Below are positions 2,327 through 58,043 of a DNA stretch of 64,000 nt, piece after piece; position 1 is the stretch's first letter, and each line of letters opens with the position of its first letter. Below the pieces are notes generated by a model. The model worked only from the letters and a program-made list of their open reading frames with translations. It had not been told where the DNA came from and ran no database searches. Position numbers and translations under genes: made by a program. The DNA comes from Candidatus Obscuribacter sp. Its GTDB lineage: Bacteria > Cyanobacteriota > Vampirovibrionia > Obscuribacterales > Obscuribacteraceae. Location of the stretch: assembly GCA_021772135.1 (NCBI GenBank), contig JADYXQ010000001.1, forward strand, positions 1 to 64,000. The letters are read 5' to 3'.

Positions 2327-3606
2327 ACCTTGTCAGCACTCGTTACGCCCAATCAATTGCCCACGCCAGGCGCATCGCCGAAGTAATACCCGGCGGCGTG
2401 GATAGCCCGTTCCGAGCCTTCCACGAAGTGGGGGGCGACACTGTTTTTTTTGATAGAGCCAAAGGCTCGAAGCTTTATGACTTGGACGGCAATTGCTATA
2501 TCGATTATTTAGGCGCATGGGGCCCGGCCATTCTTGGTCATTGCCCCGAAGCTGTAGTAACTAAATGCCAGGAGACTTTAGCAAAAGGCCCTGTTTTTGG
2601 TGCCCCTCACGTTTATGAAATGCAAATGGCCGAGCTGGTAATTGCCGCGGTGCCATCTGTAGAAAAGATTCGTTTCGTCAATTCAGGCACTGAAGCTGTG
2701 ATGAGCGCCATTCGCCTGGCCAGGGGTTTTACCGGTAAAGAAACAATCATCATGTTCGAAGGTTGTTATCACGGTCACAGCGATGCCACATTAGCCAGCG
2801 ACGGCCACCAGTCTTCTAGTGGTATTCCTGGTGGTGCGCGGGCGGCCACGAGTTTGGCGAGATTCAATAATTTGAATTCGGTAGAAAGTCTTTTTCAAAC
2901 GCAGAAAGATCAAATCGCCGCCATCATAGTCGAGCCGGTGGCAGGCTCAATGGGCGTTATTGCCCCTGATCCGAATTTTCTCTCCGGTTTGCGCAGCCTC
3001 TGCAATGAGTATGGCGCCGTATTTATCATGGACGAAGTCTTGACTGGTTTTCGCGTGGCATTTGGCGGTGCTCAAAATCTCTACAAAGTTGATGCCGACA
3101 TTACTTGCTTCGGCAAGGCACTGGGAGGCGGCATGGCCATCGGAGCTTACGGCGGCCGCAAACACATTATGGACAAACTGCAACCGGAAGGTGATGTTTA
3201 TCAGGCCGGCACATTTTCTGGCAACCCACTCACCATGGCGGGTGGCATCGCCACCCTTAAGCTTTTAGCCGATAACCGGGTCTATGAGACACTAGAGGCC
3301 CGTACAGCTCAGCTCTTTGCCGGCCTGCGCCGGATAGTTGAAGCACACCAGTATCCAGTTCAACTGCCCCGCGTCGGTTCGATGTTTTCTCTAGTCTTCG
3401 CACCAGAGCCCGTGCAGAATTTTCAAGATTCGCTGACCATTGACGCGCAAACTTTCGCCAAATTTTTCCATTATTTGCTAGACAACGGTATTTATCTACC
3501 ACCTTCATCGGTAGACGCAGCCTGCCTCTCGACAGAACACAGCGAAGCAGAAATCGATGCCACCATTGACATAATGACTGACGCTTTTAAGCACTGCTTT
3601 AATTAG
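2323..3606 (+). CDS. hemL: Glutamate-1-semialdehyde 2,1-aminomutase
   Basis: IPGGVDSPFRAF..., NSGTEAVMSAIRLARGFTGK, CFGKALGGGMAIGAYGGR (PLP lysine). TTG start overlaps the upstream stop. Confidence 0.93.
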   Translation: MNLVSTRYAQSIAHARRIAEVIPGGVDSPFRAFHEVGGDTVFFDRAKGSKLYDLDGNCYIDYLGAWGPAILGHCPEAVVTKCQETLAKGPVFGAPHVYEMQMAELVIAAVPSVEKIRFVNSGTEAVMSAIRLARGFTGKETIIMFEGCYHGHSDATLASDGHQSSSGIPGGARAATSLARFNNLNSVESLFQTQKDQIAAIIVEPVAGSMGVIAPDPNFLSGLRSLCNEYGAVFIMDEVLTGFRVAFGGAQNLYKVDADITCFGKALGGGMAIGAYGGRKHIMDKLQPEGDVYQAGTFSGNPLTMAGGIATLKLLADNRVYETLEARTAQLFAGLRRIVEAHQYPVQLPRVGSMFSLVFAPEPVQNFQDSLTIDAQTFAKFFHYLLDNGIYLPPSSVDAACLSTEHSEAEIDATIDIMTDAFKHCFN

Positions 3607-4613
3607 CCGCCGCCAATATCAAGCAATTCCGGATCTTTGGCCGCCAACCATTGCTTGCGAATTCTTAAAGCCTCGGCTCGCAGCGGTGTAATTGCCGCCC
3701 GTTCTTCAGCAGTTTTTTCCGGCCCTTGCCTGAGCACGTCGGCAATGGCAAGATTGACTCTAGCTCTTGCCAGTTGCTCTTCTGCTTGCTCCGAATGGCT
3801 CAAGTTTGTTTGTGCTTTAGAGGCAGCGCATTCTGCTTCTTTAAATTCGCCACTCATCAAATAAGCTTTACTCAGCTCGGCTAAAACGCTGGCTTTATAG
3901 CGATCCGGCGGTGTTTCTTCGCCACGTAAATCTAAAGACAGGTGCAAAAGAGTAATGGCGTCATCAGCCTGGCCGGTGATATTGAGAGTACGGGCCAGCT
4001 CATAATATGAACTGGCCAGAGCGCGGTTAACAACCTCTTGTTGTCCGGCGCCAGCCGCAGCAGACAATTCATTTTTCCTTTGCTCTAGCAGTTCGCAACC
4101 TTTCTTGCCGGCTTTCAGAGCTTCAGAATATTTTCCCTGGTCTCGCAAAACCGATCCCAGCAGTTCATAAATCAAGCCTTCCGCTTCTACTCTCTGGTAC
4201 TTAGTCTTCTTGCTGAGATTTTGATCTGAATTATATAGATCGATAGCCTGGCGCACCGTCGCTTCAGCTTCGGCAAAACGCGCCTGGCCCCGCAAAACTT
4301 CGGCGAAAAGGGCCAGCTGGAAAGCCGTTTCGGGTGATCCCGGTGAGAACACTTCATGCAGGTTCAGAGAAAAATGCGCAATTTTCTCTGCCATTAAAAG
4401 CCTGCGATTTAAACCATATATAGTGACGAAAACAGGCAAGGCCGGATAAACAAAAAAAGCAATGGCCCCGCCCATAATCAATATTAAGAGGGGCGCCAGC
4501 CACTTGAGCGGCAAGGGACAGAGAAACCAGACTGCGGTGGCCAATAACAGCCAAAGCAGGACGTAGCCGCCGAGGAAAACAATGGTTTCACGGGCAAGAT
4601 TCTTAGTTTGCAT
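3603..4613 (-). CDS. Membrane-anchored TPR protein
   Basis: N-terminal TM segments followed by TPR-like repeats (AEATVRQAIDLY, YSEALKAGKKG). Confidence 0.7.
   Translation of the reverse strand: MQTKNLARETIVFLGGYVLLWLLLATAVWFLCPLPLKWLAPLLILIMGGAIAFFVYPALPVFVTIYGLNRRLLMAEKIAHFSLNLHEVFSPGSPETAFQLALFAEVLRGQARFAEAEATVRQAIDLYNSDQNLSKKTKYQRVEAEGLIYELLGSVLRDQGKYSEALKAGKKGCELLEQRKNELSAAAGAGQQEVVNRALASSYYELARTLNITGQADDAITLLHLSLDLRGEETPPDRYKASVLAELSKAYLMSGEFKEAECAASKAQTNLSHSEQAEEQLARARVNLAIADVLRQGPEKTAEERAAITPLRAEALRIRKQWLAAKDPELLDIGGG
4365..4400. repeat. Dispersed palindromic repeat copy D, inside TPR coding sequence
   Basis: CAGAGAAAAATGCGCAATTTTCTCTGCCATTAAAAG; compare 51662 copy CAGAGAAACTTGCGCAAAATTCTCTGCTAATTAAAAG. 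Confidence 0.6.
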
Positions 4614-4619
4614 GCGATT

Positions 4620-38617: not shown

Positions 38618-40810
38618 ATGGATACCGAACGCAAAGTTTGTCCTACCTGCAAAAAAGAATTTTTTACGGACATCGACAAATGTCCGGACGACGGCAGCAG
38701 CCTGGCGCCGCCGGTTAGAGACCCCCTTGTAGGCACGGTCTTCGCCGAAAAGTACGAAATTCTTTCGGTGATTGGTTCCGGCGGCATGAGCGTCATTTAT
38801 AAAGCGCGCCACAAGTATATGGAACGACTATGCGCCGTAAAACTTTTGCATCCGTTTCTATTGTCTGATGATTCTTTGTTTCAGCGTTTTCAATACGAAG
38901 CGAAGGCAGCAAGTACTTTGTCACACGTCAACGTGGTGGCTATGCACGACTTCGGTATTACCGGCGATGGCAGAGCATATCTGGTTATGGACTTTCTCGA
39001 CGGCGAAGACTTATCAACGGTACTAGATCGCGATGTCTATTTGACCGAAGCCCAGGCCAGACCGATTTTTCGCCAAATATTGGCCGGGCTGGCTCACGCC
39101 CACTTTAAAGGCGTAATTCACCGCGATCTAAAACCGAGCAATATCTTTCTCATTCCTCAGGCAGGCACGCTGCTTGTAAAACTTGTGGACTTTGGCATCG
39201 CCAAAATCAATACCCCCGAAAATGTCAATCAAGCACTGACAAGAACGGGCGAAGTGTTCGGCTCACCGCTCTACATGAGCCCAGAGCAATGCGCCGGTAA
39301 AAGTCTCGATGCTCGCTCAGACATTTACTCGCTCGGTTGTTTGATGTACGAAACTCTCAGTGGTCTCAGGCCACTTGTTGGTGAATCGGCCTTAGAAACA
39401 ATGCACATGCATCTAAAAGAAATGCCGCTCACTCTCTCCCAGGCAGCTCCCAAGGCTGACATTTCACCAGTGCTGGAAGAAGCGGTGATGAGATGTTTGT
39501 GCAAACGAGCTCTTGACCGTTTTCAAAGCGTAGCCGATCTTTATCAGGAAATTTTCGACCAGGCTTTACCGAATATCAGCAACGATTTTATAACCGCCGG
39601 CATACCTGTTCATTCAGGCAAAGGAGTATCAATAAACACCGGCCGCACAAAAAGTTCAGGGGAGACCGGTGGCACTCTATCAGATAACGAGTCACCAATT
39701 GCCGTCGATAAAAAAACGACTACTAAAACAGCGACTAGCGTGTCACCGGAGGCTGCAAGCACCAGCACCAACTCCAAAGCTTCGATACCGCTGGTGGCGG
39801 CACTGCTTCTCAGCGGATTAGCGGTAAGCGCCGGTCTCTACTGGATAATTGCCATCTGGCCCGGACCGGAAAGCGATCGAGGCACTTTATTAAATCGCAT
39901 AATTTTCGCCGGCTGGATTTCACGAGCAGAGCAGCTCGTTAATCAATCTCATTACAGCGAAGCAGAAGATGCCTACAATCAAGCTGAAAAAATCGCTGAT
40001 GGATTCGGGGATGGATCCGGGCGATCAATGAATGTAATGAGAGCCAAACTAAAACTGTTCGAGCTTTCCGATCAACCTAAACGCAGCGAGGCTGTTTTGA
40101 AAGAAATGGCTCTGGTTAATCGCAACCGCGCGCTAACCGATTGCGACGTCGTGCTAAGAGAAATTGAAAGAATTAGAAAGCAGTACGAGAAAGTGAAGTT
40201 AACCAGCCAGGATCGTGGCATTAATAGCGAACGCGAACTGGCCTTGCAAATGGGCACCAAAATCGCTGCAATCATTGCTGTTTCGCAGAGATTACGCGCA
40301 GTGAATGCTTATGATGATCAAGAAAATTTGCTTCAGAAAGCTACCGATTTATACAATCAATTGGTGAGCAACGACGATCCGCAATTAGCCGATTTGAAAA
40401 CCGCCCTGGCGTACAGTCACTGGGATCAAGATGAAATTGTTTATGTCCGTCCGCTTCTGGCGCAGGCCCTAGCCATTACAATAAATGCCAACAAAAGAGA
40501 TGCCCGACAGGCAAGTGCACTCGATGTCGCTGAGAGCTGGCTCAGACTGGGGCAATGCGATCGCGATCGCAGCGCTTACGCCGATGCTGATAAAGAATTG
40601 GGCACGGCTCTATCAATTTTGCGCGCTTATTCAAAGCTTGACAAAAACGACCCTGAATCAGCAAGGGGTTACAAACTTTTGATTGAATGTCTCAACGCTA
40701 CCGCCGACTACAAAGTTCAAGTGCATAAAGACGCAGAAGCACTTGTTTTGCGAAATCAGGTCGCTGCGATGAAGAAAGTAAAATTAGACTATCAACCTTT
40801 GCCGCAATAA
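38618..40810 (+). CDS. Ser/Thr protein kinase with N-terminal zinc ribbon and C-terminal TPR-like region
   Basis: CPTCKKEFFTDIDKCPDDG; IGSGGMSVIYKARHKYMERLCAVKLL; HRDLKPSNIFL; DFGIAKI; TM segment at AALLLSGLAVSAGLYWIIAI. Confidence 0.93.
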   Translation: MDTERKVCPTCKKEFFTDIDKCPDDGSSLAPPVRDPLVGTVFAEKYEILSVIGSGGMSVIYKARHKYMERLCAVKLLHPFLLSDDSLFQRFQYEAKAASTLSHVNVVAMHDFGITGDGRAYLVMDFLDGEDLSTVLDRDVYLTEAQARPIFRQILAGLAHAHFKGVIHRDLKPSNIFLIPQAGTLLVKLVDFGIAKINTPENVNQALTRTGEVFGSPLYMSPEQCAGKSLDARSDIYSLGCLMYETLSGLRPLVGESALETMHMHLKEMPLTLSQAAPKADISPVLEEAVMRCLCKRALDRFQSVADLYQEIFDQALPNISNDFITAGIPVHSGKGVSINTGRTKSSGETGGTLSDNESPIAVDKKTTTKTATSVSPEAASTSTNSKASIPLVAALLLSGLAVSAGLYWIIAIWPGPESDRGTLLNRIIFAGWISRAEQLVNQSHYSEAEDAYNQAEKIADGFGDGSGRSMNVMRAKLKLFELSDQPKRSEAVLKEMALVNRNRALTDCDVVLREIERIRKQYEKVKLTSQDRGINSERELALQMGTKIAAIIAVSQRLRAVNAYDDQENLLQKATDLYNQLVSNDDPQLADLKTALAYSHWDQDEIVYVRPLLAQALAITINANKRDARQASALDVAESWLRLGQCDRDRSAYADADKELGTALSILRAYSKLDKNDPESARGYKLLIECLNATADYKVQVHKDAEALVLRNQVAAMKKVKLDYQPLPQ

Positions 40811-40871: not shown

Positions 40872-40917
40872 TGTAAGTGAGCAGAGAAATTTGCGCAAAT
40901 TTCTCTGCTCACTTACA
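40872..40917. repeat. Perfect 46-bp palindrome, dispersed repeat copy A
   Basis: TGTAAGTGAGCAGAGAAATTTGC|GCAAATTTCTCTGCTCACTTACA, no mismatch and no spacer. Confidence 0.95.
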
Positions 40918-41060: not shown

Positions 41061-41731
41061 ATGAGCTGTGCAATGTTGATCAGAACACACATCGGGCTAC
41101 TTAAACCTGGCGAAATTTTTACGTCCCGCGATTTTATCAATTACGGAACGCGGACCGCCATCGACCAGTTTTTGTGGAAGCTCGTAAAAACTAAAGAAAT
41201 TAATAGGCTAACTAACGGAGTATTTGTTGATAGTTATAAGCGCCGCGCTGCTTACACAAGTACAGAAATCGCTCAAGTGAAGGCCAATGCTTTCGCTAAG
41301 AAAAAGTTTGAACATGATTCAATACTGGCCGAGGAACGCGCACTGCCTGTGAGTGATGCAGCTAAGTACGTTTATGCCGTCAATAGATCAACAACATCCA
41401 TGAGACAGGTGGAGATTGGCAGTCGTCTTATTTACGCGGCGCCAGTGGCAGAAAAGAGCACCTTGCGAATCACAAATTTGGTGACATTATTCGCGCACTG
41501 TGGCAGATCGGTGAAAAAAACTGCGAACTGGAACATGTGAAAAAAGTCACTGCCCAGTGGGACCGTGAGCAAGCCAGAATTCTTCTCGAAAATGGCCGGT
41601 GGATGCCAGCCTGGTTGCTCAAAATGTTCAGGGAAATCTTCGGCAGCTTCTGGTTGAAAGTTGCTTTTCAAACGCTAGAAGCTCGTGCGGCGATATCCCG
41701 AAATGATCAACCGGAAGATACAAATTTTTGA
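41061..41731 (+). pseudogene. DUF6088 / AbiEi-antitoxin-like gene with internal frameshift
   Basis: Frame 1: MSCAMLIRTHIGLLKPGEIFTSRDFINYG...GSRLIYAAPV. It continues in another frame: GRKEHLANHKFGDIIRALWQIGEKNCELEHVKKVTAQWDREQARILLENGRW. Needs a 1-nt correction near 41447. Confidence 0.65.
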
Positions 41732-41740
41732 GATTCAAAT

Positions 41741-42907
41741 TTACTTGGCGGCTGTAGCCATGACGGTTACTTTGGCCAGGCCAGCTTCGAGATCTTTCAC
41801 CAGATCATCTATGTCTTCGATGCCGACTGACAAACGAACCAGCGCGTCTACCACGCCTCTAGCGTCACGCTCGGCCTTTGGTATTGAGCCGTGCGTCATC
41901 GACACAGGGTGACAAACCAGCGATTCAACACCACCCAAACTTTCAGCCAGGGCGAACAATTTTGTTGAACCGAGGAACTGCCGTGCGCTTTCCAGCCCAC
42001 CTTTAAGCACGAATGAGACCATGCCTCCGTAACCATTCATTTGCTCTTTGGCAAGAGAATGTTGAGGGTGGCTGGCTAAACCTGGATACATCACTTTTTC
42101 AACAGCAGGATGTTTTTCTAAATACTGGGCGATGATCATGGCATTTTTTTGATGGGCTTCCATACGCACAGCTAAGGTTTTTACGCCGCGCATGACCAGC
42201 CAGCAATCCCATGGGCCAGGCACGGCTCCCACAGCGTTTTGATGAAATTTGAGAGTTTCATAGAGGTCATCTCTGGAAGTGATCACGGCACCACCGATGA
42301 CATCACTGTGCCCACCTAGATATTTCGTCACAGAATGAACGACGATATCGGCACCCAACGCTAGCGGATTCTGCAAGTAAGGACTGGCGAAAGTATTATC
42401 GACAACAGTTACTAACTTTTTCTCTTGCGCCACAGCGGCAATGGCTTTGATGTCGCAAAGCCTGAGCAGTGGATTCGTTGGTGTCTCCACCCAGATCATT
42501 TTTGTATTTGGCTGTATAGCAGCTTTTACTTTGCTGGCGTCGCTGGCATCGACATAAGTAAAAGTGAGGCCATAACGCTTCCATACTTTTTCAAATAATC
42601 TGTACGTGCCACCATAAACATCATCGCCGCAGATAACGTGATCGCCGCTGGACAGCAGATTCATGATGTTGCCTTCGGCGGCCAATCCGGACCCAAAGCA
42701 AAGGCCGTATTTGCCGCCTTCCAGAGAAGCGAGGCACTCTTCTAAAGCAAAACGCGTCGGGTTTTGAGTGCGGGCGTATTCAAAGCCTTTATGTTGATTC
42801 AAGCCTTCCTGTACATAAGTGGAAGTTTGATAAACAGGCGTGATAATAGCGCCGGTTGTAGGATCCGGTTCTTGTCCTACGTGAATTGCCTTAGTCGAGA
42901 ACTTCAT
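41741..42907 (-). CDS. metB: Trans-sulfuration PLP enzyme (cystathionine gamma-synthase/lyase)
   Basis: MKFSTKAIHVGQEPDPTTGAIITPVYQTSTYVQEG...YARTQNPTR; HSVTKYLGGHSDVIGG. Confidence 0.88.
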   Translation of the reverse strand: MKFSTKAIHVGQEPDPTTGAIITPVYQTSTYVQEGLNQHKGFEYARTQNPTRFALEECLASLEGGKYGLCFGSGLAAEGNIMNLLSSGDHVICGDDVYGGTYRLFEKVWKRYGLTFTYVDASDASKVKAAIQPNTKMIWVETPTNPLLRLCDIKAIAAVAQEKKLVTVVDNTFASPYLQNPLALGADIVVHSVTKYLGGHSDVIGGAVITSRDDLYETLKFHQNAVGAVPGPWDCWLVMRGVKTLAVRMEAHQKNAMIIAQYLEKHPAVEKVMYPGLASHPQHSLAKEQMNGYGGMVSFVLKGGLESARQFLGSTKLFALAESLGGVESLVCHPVSMTHGSIPKAERDARGVVDALVRLSVGIEDIDDLVKDLEAGLAKVTVMATAAK

Positions 42908-42926: not shown

Positions 42927-44354
42927 TTAGACAGAGATTTTTGCAGATTTTTCTCTGTCTTTTTTTCCACTCAATTCTTCGGTGTTGATTCCGCCGGCGG
43001 CCCGCAGGTGCGAAACAATGTCAAATTTCGTCAACACACCACAAGCTTTGCCTTCTTTCGTCAAAAGCACCATGTTGCTGCCAAGCTTAAATTGCTTGTA
43101 AACACAATCGATTTCACTATCCACATCAACTTGCGGGAAAGGTCTGCCCATTACCGACGAAACAGTTGTTGTCTCAGGATGCTTACGTTCGTAAACAATT
43201 TGCATTGTGATCAAATCGTTGATGTGACCAACGTTCTGACCAGCGGCAGTGACAACGGGCAATTGATCGATCTGATACTTTTGCATAATTTCGATAGCGG
43301 TTTGCACAGTCTCGTCAGGCTGAATTGTAATCATGCCTGGCACCTTGCCGTTAATTGCTTTACCTTCCAGCAAATCGCTGGCGAAGAAACTTACGCCTTC
43401 GGCTTGCAAGAAACCATATTCGCGCATCCACTCGTCAGAATAAATTTTGCTGAGATAGCCTCTGCCACCATCGGGCAAAATCACGACAATAACGTCATTT
43501 TCGTCCATGGTCGCGGCGACACGCAAAGCGGCAACTGTAGCCGTACCGCAAGATCCGCCTACGAGCAGACCTTCCTCGCGAGCCAGACGTCTGGCCATGA
43601 TAAAGGAATCCTTGTCGGCTACGCGTTCGAAATGATCGACGATTTTCAAATCAGCGTTGCGTGGAATAAAGTCTTCGCCGATGCCTTCAACTTTATAAGA
43701 TCCTGGGGTGTCACCTGAATAAATGGAACCTTCAGGATCAGCGCCGACAATTTTGATTTTCGGATTTTTCTCTTTGAGATAACGGGCAGTACCGGATATG
43801 GTGCCACCAGTGCCGGCCCCGGCCACAAGACAGGTAATCTTTCCTGAGGTCTGCTCCCAGATTTCAGGACCAGTGGTCTCATAGTGAGAGTCGGGATTAT
43901 TGCTGTTGGCAAACTGATTCGGTTGGAAAGAACCGGGAATTTCCATTGTTAGTCGGTTGGCTACAGAATAATAACTTTCGGGAGAACTGGCAGAAACGGT
44001 GGATGGCACCATGACTACTTCCGCCCCATAAGCCTTGAGCAAGTTTATTTTCTCTGGAGCGACCTTGTCAGGACATATCAAAATACATTTATAGCCTTTC
44101 ACTGCGGCAATCTGTGCCAGCCCAGTGCCGGTATTACCTGAGGTAGGCTCGATAATTGTGCCGCCGGGTTTGAGTAAACCGGCCTTTTCGGCTTCTTCAA
44201 TCATCTTTAAAGAAGGTCTATCTTTAATTGATCCGCCTGGGTTAAAGACCTCCATCTTGGCCAAAATTGTCGGTTTGAGGCCTTTTGAGACCTTGCTCAA
44301 CTTCACAAGAGGAGTTTCGCCGATTGTTTCCAGAATGTTCTCGCAGTACTTCAC
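42927..44354 (-). CDS. Cystathionine beta-synthase with C-terminal CBS domains
   Basis: ETPLVKL..., GGSIKDRP, EPTSGNTGTGLA, PLP fold plus two CBS motifs. GTG at 44354 preferred because GGAGG Shine-Dalgarno overlaps the listed ATG (44369). Confidence 0.88.
   Translation of the reverse strand: MKYCENILETIGETPLVKLSKVSKGLKPTILAKMEVFNPGGSIKDRPSLKMIEEAEKAGLLKPGGTIIEPTSGNTGTGLAQIAAVKGYKCILICPDKVAPEKINLLKAYGAEVVMVPSTVSASSPESYYSVANRLTMEIPGSFQPNQFANSNNPDSHYETTGPEIWEQTSGKITCLVAGAGTGGTISGTARYLKEKNPKIKIVGADPEGSIYSGDTPGSYKVEGIGEDFIPRNADLKIVDHFERVADKDSFIMARRLAREEGLLVGGSCGTATVAALRVAATMDENDVIVVILPDGGRGYLSKIYSDEWMREYGFLQAEGVSFFASDLLEGKAINGKVPGMITIQPDETVQTAIEIMQKYQIDQLPVVTAAGQNVGHINDLITMQIVYERKHPETTTVSSVMGRPFPQVDVDSEIDCVYKQFKLGSNMVLLTKEGKACGVLTKFDIVSHLRAAGGINTEELSGKKDREKSAKISV
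42929..42967. repeat. Dispersed palindromic repeat copy B (3' end of CBS gene)
   Basis: Minus strand AAGACAGAGAAAAATCTGCAAAAATCTCTGTCT; 9-bp arms; alignable with the 51656 copy including the flanking CTAATTAAA. Confidence 0.7.
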
Positions 44355-51656: not shown

Positions 51657-51696
51657 AAGACAGAGAAACTTGCGCAAAATTCTCTGCTAATTAAAA
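51657..51696. repeat. Dispersed palindromic repeat copy C (immediately after response regulator stop)
   Basis: AAGACAGAGAAACTTGCGCAAAATTCTCTGCTAATTAAA. Confidence 0.75.
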
Positions 51697-58019: not shown

Positions 58020-58043
58020 AAAAATACGTCCGGACGTATTTTT
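58020..58043. terminator. Palindromic bidirectional terminator
   Basis: AAAAATACGTCC|GGACGTATTTTT, perfect 24-bp palindrome between convergent genes. Confidence 0.75.

Follow-up and report, generated by a model that had tools for sequence, protein, structure and literature searches.

A perfect 46-bp palindrome in Candidatus Obscuribacter as a dispersed dyad and putative operator of a DUF6088 (AbiEi-type) protein

The stretch of Candidatus Obscuribacter sp. DNA analysed here, 64,000 nucleotides long and referred to as the window, carries a 46-bp palindrome, TGTAAGTGAGCAGAGAAATTTGC followed directly by GCAAATTTCTCTGCTCACTTACA, and the question it raises is what such a sequence does between a kinase-like gene and a DUF6088 gene. 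An earlier, sequence-only reading had described it as perfect and spacer-less, which holds exactly: the two 23-bp arms are 100% complementary with no spacer between them. As that reading also stated, there is no T tract after it. The runner-up perfect spacer-less palindromes of the window have arms of only 12 bp, and a chance origin is negligible at 4^-23 per position. Assembly fold-back, which the same reading had raised as a possible artefact, is unlikely, because an orthologous dyad is present in an independent metagenome-assembled genome (MAG) of another species (G003) and the family to which the palindrome belongs is spread over about 30 contigs. In G003 (C131:9170), the dyad lies between the same kinase and cystathionine gamma-synthase genes, which it alone separates, DUF6088 being absent from this site. 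The features concerned are collected in Table 1.

Table 1. Features of the window that bear on the palindrome
Feature	Coordinates	Strand	Evidence
Perfect palindrome, proposed operator of DUF6088 (AbiEi-type) protein	40872..40917	.	sequence, genome family, DUF6088 linkage
Conserved 26-bp core CAGAGA-AATT-TGCGCA-AATT-TCTCTG	40882..40907	.	alignment of 32 genomic copies, position frequencies
Serine/threonine kinase-like gene, left neighbour of palindrome	38618..40810	+	
DUF6088 gene, N-terminal wHTH part	41061..41540	+	PF19570 E=3.4e-5, 24.1 bits (cut-off 25); homology to intact L029 protein
Same DUF6088 gene, C-terminal part, other frame	41387..41728	+	hmmsearch 2.7e-16, tblastn
Cystathionine gamma-synthase-like gene, right neighbour	41741..42907	-	
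Family member within a gene for a TPR protein (3606-4619, minus strand), coding for AEKIAHFSL	4365..4390	.	
Family member CAGAGATTTTTGCAGATTTTTCTCTG, 3' end of the gene for cystathionine beta-synthase; G003 has the orthologous copy (L027)	42932..42957	.	
Family member 4 bp past response-regulator stop codon; orthologous in G003 (L023)	51661..51686	.	

The palindrome is one member of a family of about 32 dyads dispersed through the genome (5.9 Mb, 333 contigs). The exact 26-bp core occurs at two sites, C136:10585 and the palindrome itself, and with up to 3 mismatches it is found 3 times in the window versus 0 times in 100 shuffles. The relaxed core CAGAGA-N4-TGCGCA-N4-TCTCTG gives 24 exact matches genome-wide, 29 at ≤1 mismatch and 35 at ≤3, with 0 (≤1) and 1 (≤3) for its reversed control. 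The 32 copies taken as the reliable set for counts and alignment share the consensus GGTAnnnnGA-CAGAGA-WWWW-TGCGCA-WWWW-TCTCTG-TCnnnnTACC, exactly 46 bp long, whose conserved blocks are spaced about one helical turn apart. The half-site CAGAGA-W4-TGC appears 51 times within dyads and 0 times alone (147 kb), and single sites of the uptake-sequence type are ruled out, as half-sites are never solitary. By ORF-based positions, a gene 3' end is the nearest gene feature for 21 of the 29 intergenic copies and lies ≤110 bp away for 19 of the 32; six copies are located between convergent genes. A short palindrome, CCGATATCGG, recurs near several dyads (L005, L024, L026, L097).

Arm pairing ends 23 bp from the centre, and the ten outer pairs covary strongly, with 69 double changes versus 36 expected and none of 500 shuffles as high. 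The inner W4 blocks fail to pair in roughly one copy in four. Template switching between palindrome arms has been described to homogenise inverted repeats, coding genes included (PMC8604942), and the arm covariation is consistent both with selection for symmetry and with such switching.

Each related species has its own dialect of the dyad. The exact pattern was found in GTDB contigs only in the MAG 'uncultured cyanobacterium PMM_0089' (the congener G003), a scan that may not have included records of the own genome. In viral contigs the exact dyad is absent, and a phage origin was rejected on this ground and because neither phage records nor viral contigs hold a protein of the type encoded at the DUF6088 locus L029. 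In relatives of the same bacterial family, AGA-N14-TCT is common to all dyads and the remaining letters are species-specific, with search controls of zero in most genomes. The copies of G003, about 20, are without exception CAGAGA-N14-TCTCTG, less strict in the centre and with CG outside in place of GA; in G004, G002, G001 and G005, the prevailing types are GTC-AGATTTT-N6-AAAATCT-GAC; and the dialects of G016 and G030 are AGATTTTCCCGGGAAAATCT and AGATTTTTGCGCAAAAATCT, respectively. The dyad of G009, AGAGATTTTTTCGAAAATATCTCT, forms tandem arrays, at L094 1330-1605 (50-bp period) and at about 850-1035 of L095 (shorter period), the latter preceding a DUF6088 gene. In G016, the dyads at L114, L115, L121, L123 and L124 belong to a near-identical repeat of greater length, located at the ends of contigs, and are therefore part of a larger repeated segment. 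Beside one G004 dyad, L133 608-744 matches the Rfam poplar-1 RNA (RF03041) above the gathering score.

The gene next to the palindrome encodes a protein of the DUF6088 family. Its ATG, assigned from the alignment of homologues and an upstream ribosome-binding-like GGAGG, lies 143 bp past the palindrome, and its frame changes between 41336 and 41435, which points to gene decay or to an error of assembly. DUF6088-like genes stand beside three of the 32 dyads of the own genome (the window, L029 and L038), the L038 gene being likewise broken and the L029 gene, at 697-1368 on the minus strand of that locus, intact. When the fetched loci (about 600 kb) were scanned, homologues were found at dyad sites only, in six genera including the own one, and roughly 150 kb of sequence from elsewhere yielded none; the loci outside the own genome (G000) had been picked by the dyad alone, without regard to DUF6088. 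The loci of other genera are L115 and L118 (G016), L126 (G030), L129 and L131 (G013), L152 (G032) and L095 (G009), and none of the 23 dyads of G003 adjoins such a gene. Wherever the start codon is clear, the gene runs away from a dyad that precedes it, mostly with 119-153 bp between core and start codon and with 20-22 bp in two cases. Against the PF19570 cut-off of 25 bits, the proteins of L129, L131 and L118 score above (35.8, 31.2 and 27.5), those of the window, L029 and L126 below (24.1, 18.2 and 20.9), and the L095 protein has no match; one of the DUF6088 proteins also matches AbiEi_4, and an NCBIfam search with these proteins returned none.

Structure, too, relates DUF6088 to AbiEi. In the predicted model of the L029 protein, residues 1-60 form a winged helix-turn-helix (wHTH) in the order H-E-H-H-E-E with a pLDDT of about 90, the rest being poorly modelled, and the best matches of a fold search of the PDB are chains D and A of AbiEi 6Y8Q (E=3e-4 and 7e-4), with a low whole-chain TM-score of 0.32. 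When the PDB was searched by sequence, with an alignment of DUF6088 proteins, nothing useful came up; of the two PDB searches, only that by fold was informative. An AbiEii (DUF1814) toxin was recognised, judging by eye, neither downstream in the window, where the next gene is cystathionine gamma-synthase, nor at the seven intact DUF6088 loci, where the ORFs that follow are convergent or dissimilar, or where none is present (one locus stops at a contig end).

Proteobacterial plasmids provided an independent test of the linkage between gene and dyad. The 13 plasmid DUF6088 genes came from Agrobacterium, Aminobacter, Mesorhizobium, Ruegeria, Roseovarius, Leisingera, Ensifer, Pseudomonas, Sphingobium, Sinorhizobium and Roseibium, and an AbiEii toxin gene is annotated adjacent to 8 of them. 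AGA-N14-TCT or AGA-N16-TCT with 4/4 outer pairs occurs directly before the start codon in 10 of the 13, most commonly as TGTCAGA-N14-TCTGACA, whereas at least 3/4 outer pairs were present in 17 of 3,260 control windows (0.5%). The motif was read from the first 7 genes, 6 of which have it; of the 6 fetched afterwards, 4 carry it as well.

On this evidence, the palindrome is probably an operator of DUF6088, an AbiEi-type wHTH antitoxin-like repressor, and of the three functions that had been suggested for it (cruciform, site for a dimeric protein, mobile palindrome), the dimeric-protein site is the best supported, with the neighbouring DUF6088 family as the likely binding partner. If AbiEi is a guide, each 23-bp half would take up one monomer, and expression of the downstream DUF6088 gene would be repressed at the dyad. 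In this bacterial family, the protein would be an orphan that lacks the AbiEii toxin, and its operator would have multiplied, in the own genome to about 32 dyads, the majority close to the 3' ends of genes and bound in trans. Binding selection may maintain arm symmetry, probably aided by template-switch copying between arms. The per-species dialects fit sites that track changes in one trans-acting protein, and the lack of solitary half-sites and the change of dialect at 4 of the 11 sites orthologous in G003 also speak for an operator. Effects of DUF6088 beyond its own operon would have a precedent, since expression of 116 genes was altered in an AbiEi mutant of Mesorhizobium (PMC8436566). Several observations count against an operator: a DUF6088 gene adjoins only three of the 32 dyads here and none of the 23 in G003, most of the others being near gene 3' ends rather than promoters; the gene in the window is frameshifted and its Pfam score falls slightly short of the cut-off; the half-site is CAGAGA here versus GTCAGA on plasmids, with only AGA-N14-TCT in common; the 119-153 bp to the start codon exceeds the distance in AbiEi or plasmid genes; and a protein site has no need of covarying outer arms. 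Binding at gene 3' ends might insulate genes or act as a transcription roadblock, or such sites might merely be tolerated.

Spread as a mobile hairpin of the REP/REPIN or small-dispersed-repeat kind, with a trans-acting transposase moving it in single-stranded form and with DUF6088 incidental, is unlikely. It would accommodate dyads that are dispersed, mostly extragenic and species-specific with covarying arms, compensatory changes being known in REPINs as well (PMC3116915). Own genome and G003 share 11 sites with diverged flanks, and at 4 of these the pair beside the core is A-T versus G-C on both sides, each matching the consensus of its own genome. The 12 copies with GGTACC-type arms include none shared with G003, compared with 11 of the other 20, and they may therefore be younger. 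A dyad at L016 1450-1590 lies in a 137-bp spacer that is missing in four congeners, whose genes abut or overlap, and the spacer is bordered by similar copies of GACATaCTaAAG, a possible insertion with duplication. The two genic copies, however, at 4365 of the window (TPR protein) and at L003 (membrane protein), align gap-free with dyad-less sister species, AEKIAHFSL in the former corresponding to AERVAKFCL; they thus arose by substitution, and insertion into these coding genes is ruled out. Neither a target duplication nor a conserved flank past the 46 bp is conspicuous (flank information of 13.1 versus 9.9-10.7 in controls), and a larger mobile element with conserved flanks was set aside, its signal being weak only. 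Nor would a mobile hairpin explain why dyads accompany DUF6088 genes in different genera and phyla. The suggestion that the palindrome is the best-preserved copy of a mobile element is thus borne out as to dispersal and not as to rank, about a dozen other copies being equally or nearly as intact; as to mobility, the genic copies and the shared sites speak against it, and only the GGTACC-arm subset looks newly spread.

A stem-loop acting in RNA at gene 3' ends, as a bidirectional terminator, an RNase III substrate or a stabiliser of mRNA, is improbable. The frequent location near 3' ends and between convergent genes would suit it, the transcript forms a 23-bp hairpin, and A and T tracts flank some dialects of sister species. 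Most copies in the own genome, however, lack a T tract afterwards, and a separate canonical terminator stands beside the copies at 51661 (about 40 bp on), L017 and L031; a simple intrinsic terminator, already doubted on the missing T tract in the sequence-only reading, was discarded for both reasons. With arms oriented by the upstream gene, G-U pairs (8) are no commoner than A-C (9), so that no RNA signature is seen, and the dyads have no Rfam match as an RNA family. Two copies are genic, the inner W4 blocks are unpaired in some copies, and the dyads before DUF6088 genes would be left unexplained. More favourable to an RNA role is that at two convergent sites where the own genome has the 46-bp dyad, G003 has different, terminator-like palindromes. 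These sequences, resembling AAAAAATACCTT(TCGA or TTTA)AAGGTATTTTTT, and the perfect 24-bp palindrome AAAAATACGTCCGGACGTATTTTT at 58020-58043 of the window may belong to a second family, of bidirectional terminators. As for a cruciform, a single strand of the palindrome folds well and such a structure is possible, but nothing indicates it as the function. Finally, a site of another global DNA-binding protein (segregation, nucleoid or division), which DUF6088 genes merely happen to carry, would agree with the number of sequence-specific dyads (about 32 per genome), with a block spacing of about one helical turn and with evolution in place inside genes. A dyad of the same layout, however, also stands before the DUF6088 genes of unrelated phyla, which are not known to have a factor of this kind in common, and the explanation is very improbable.

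If the palindrome is an operator of DUF6088, a further step can be proposed tentatively, namely that a toxin-less AbiEi-type antitoxin was domesticated into a genome-wide DNA-binding factor, whose operators multiplied to dozens of dyads at gene ends, formed de novo by substitution even in coding sequence and drift in dialect with the protein. DUF6088, a family of unknown function, would then gain a DNA recognition code readable from sequence (AGA-N14-TCT dyads), the system would exemplify a phage-defence antitoxin turned solitary many-site regulator, and the species dialects would offer a natural series for co-change of a wHTH protein and its operator. Most remarkable is the genome-wide dispersal of the site, with a separate dialect in each related species.

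Among known systems, REP and REPIN sequences (PMC3116915, PMC8266576) and cyanobacterial small dispersed repeats (cited in PMC3116915) resemble the dyads in being short dispersed palindromes, mostly extragenic and species-specific, with compensatory changes. Unlike them, the present family comprises about 32 copies, includes genic members that arose without insertion and is tied to a putative repressor gene; a REP-type tetranucleotide (GTAG/GGAG) beside the palindrome and a conserved flank outside the 46 bp are both absent. HIP1, DNA uptake sequences and parS-like sites are short dispersed motifs able to arise by substitution in genes. Unlike these, the dyads are 26-46 bp long, occur only in full, have a dialect in each species and are linked to an adjacent putative repressor gene. 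The plasmid DUF6088-AbiEii pairs share with the present locus the AGA-N14/16-TCT dyad preceding the DUF6088 gene, but there the toxin is usually present, the dyad is about 10-40 bp from the start and the half-site is mostly GTCAGA. The closest counterparts are AbiEi of Streptococcus agalactiae, which binds two 23-bp inverted repeats in its own promoter (23-3-23), one monomer being predicted per half (PMC3985639), and Rv2827c of Mycobacterium tuberculosis, which binds inverted repeats of 23 bp situated at -1 to -131 (PMC7319586). The spacing is 0 bp here (23-0-23) versus 3 bp or 13 bp there, the letters differ, and, unlike abiE, a type IV toxin-antitoxin system, this locus has no adjacent AbiEii toxin and is accompanied by dozens of extra genomic dyads. 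Common to all three are 23-bp inverted repeats upstream of a gene for a wHTH repressor (a putative one here), in the present case 23+23 bp at 143 bp before the DUF6088 ATG and with upstream dyads at other DUF6088 loci, and it is AbiEi that the predicted DUF6088 structure matches best.
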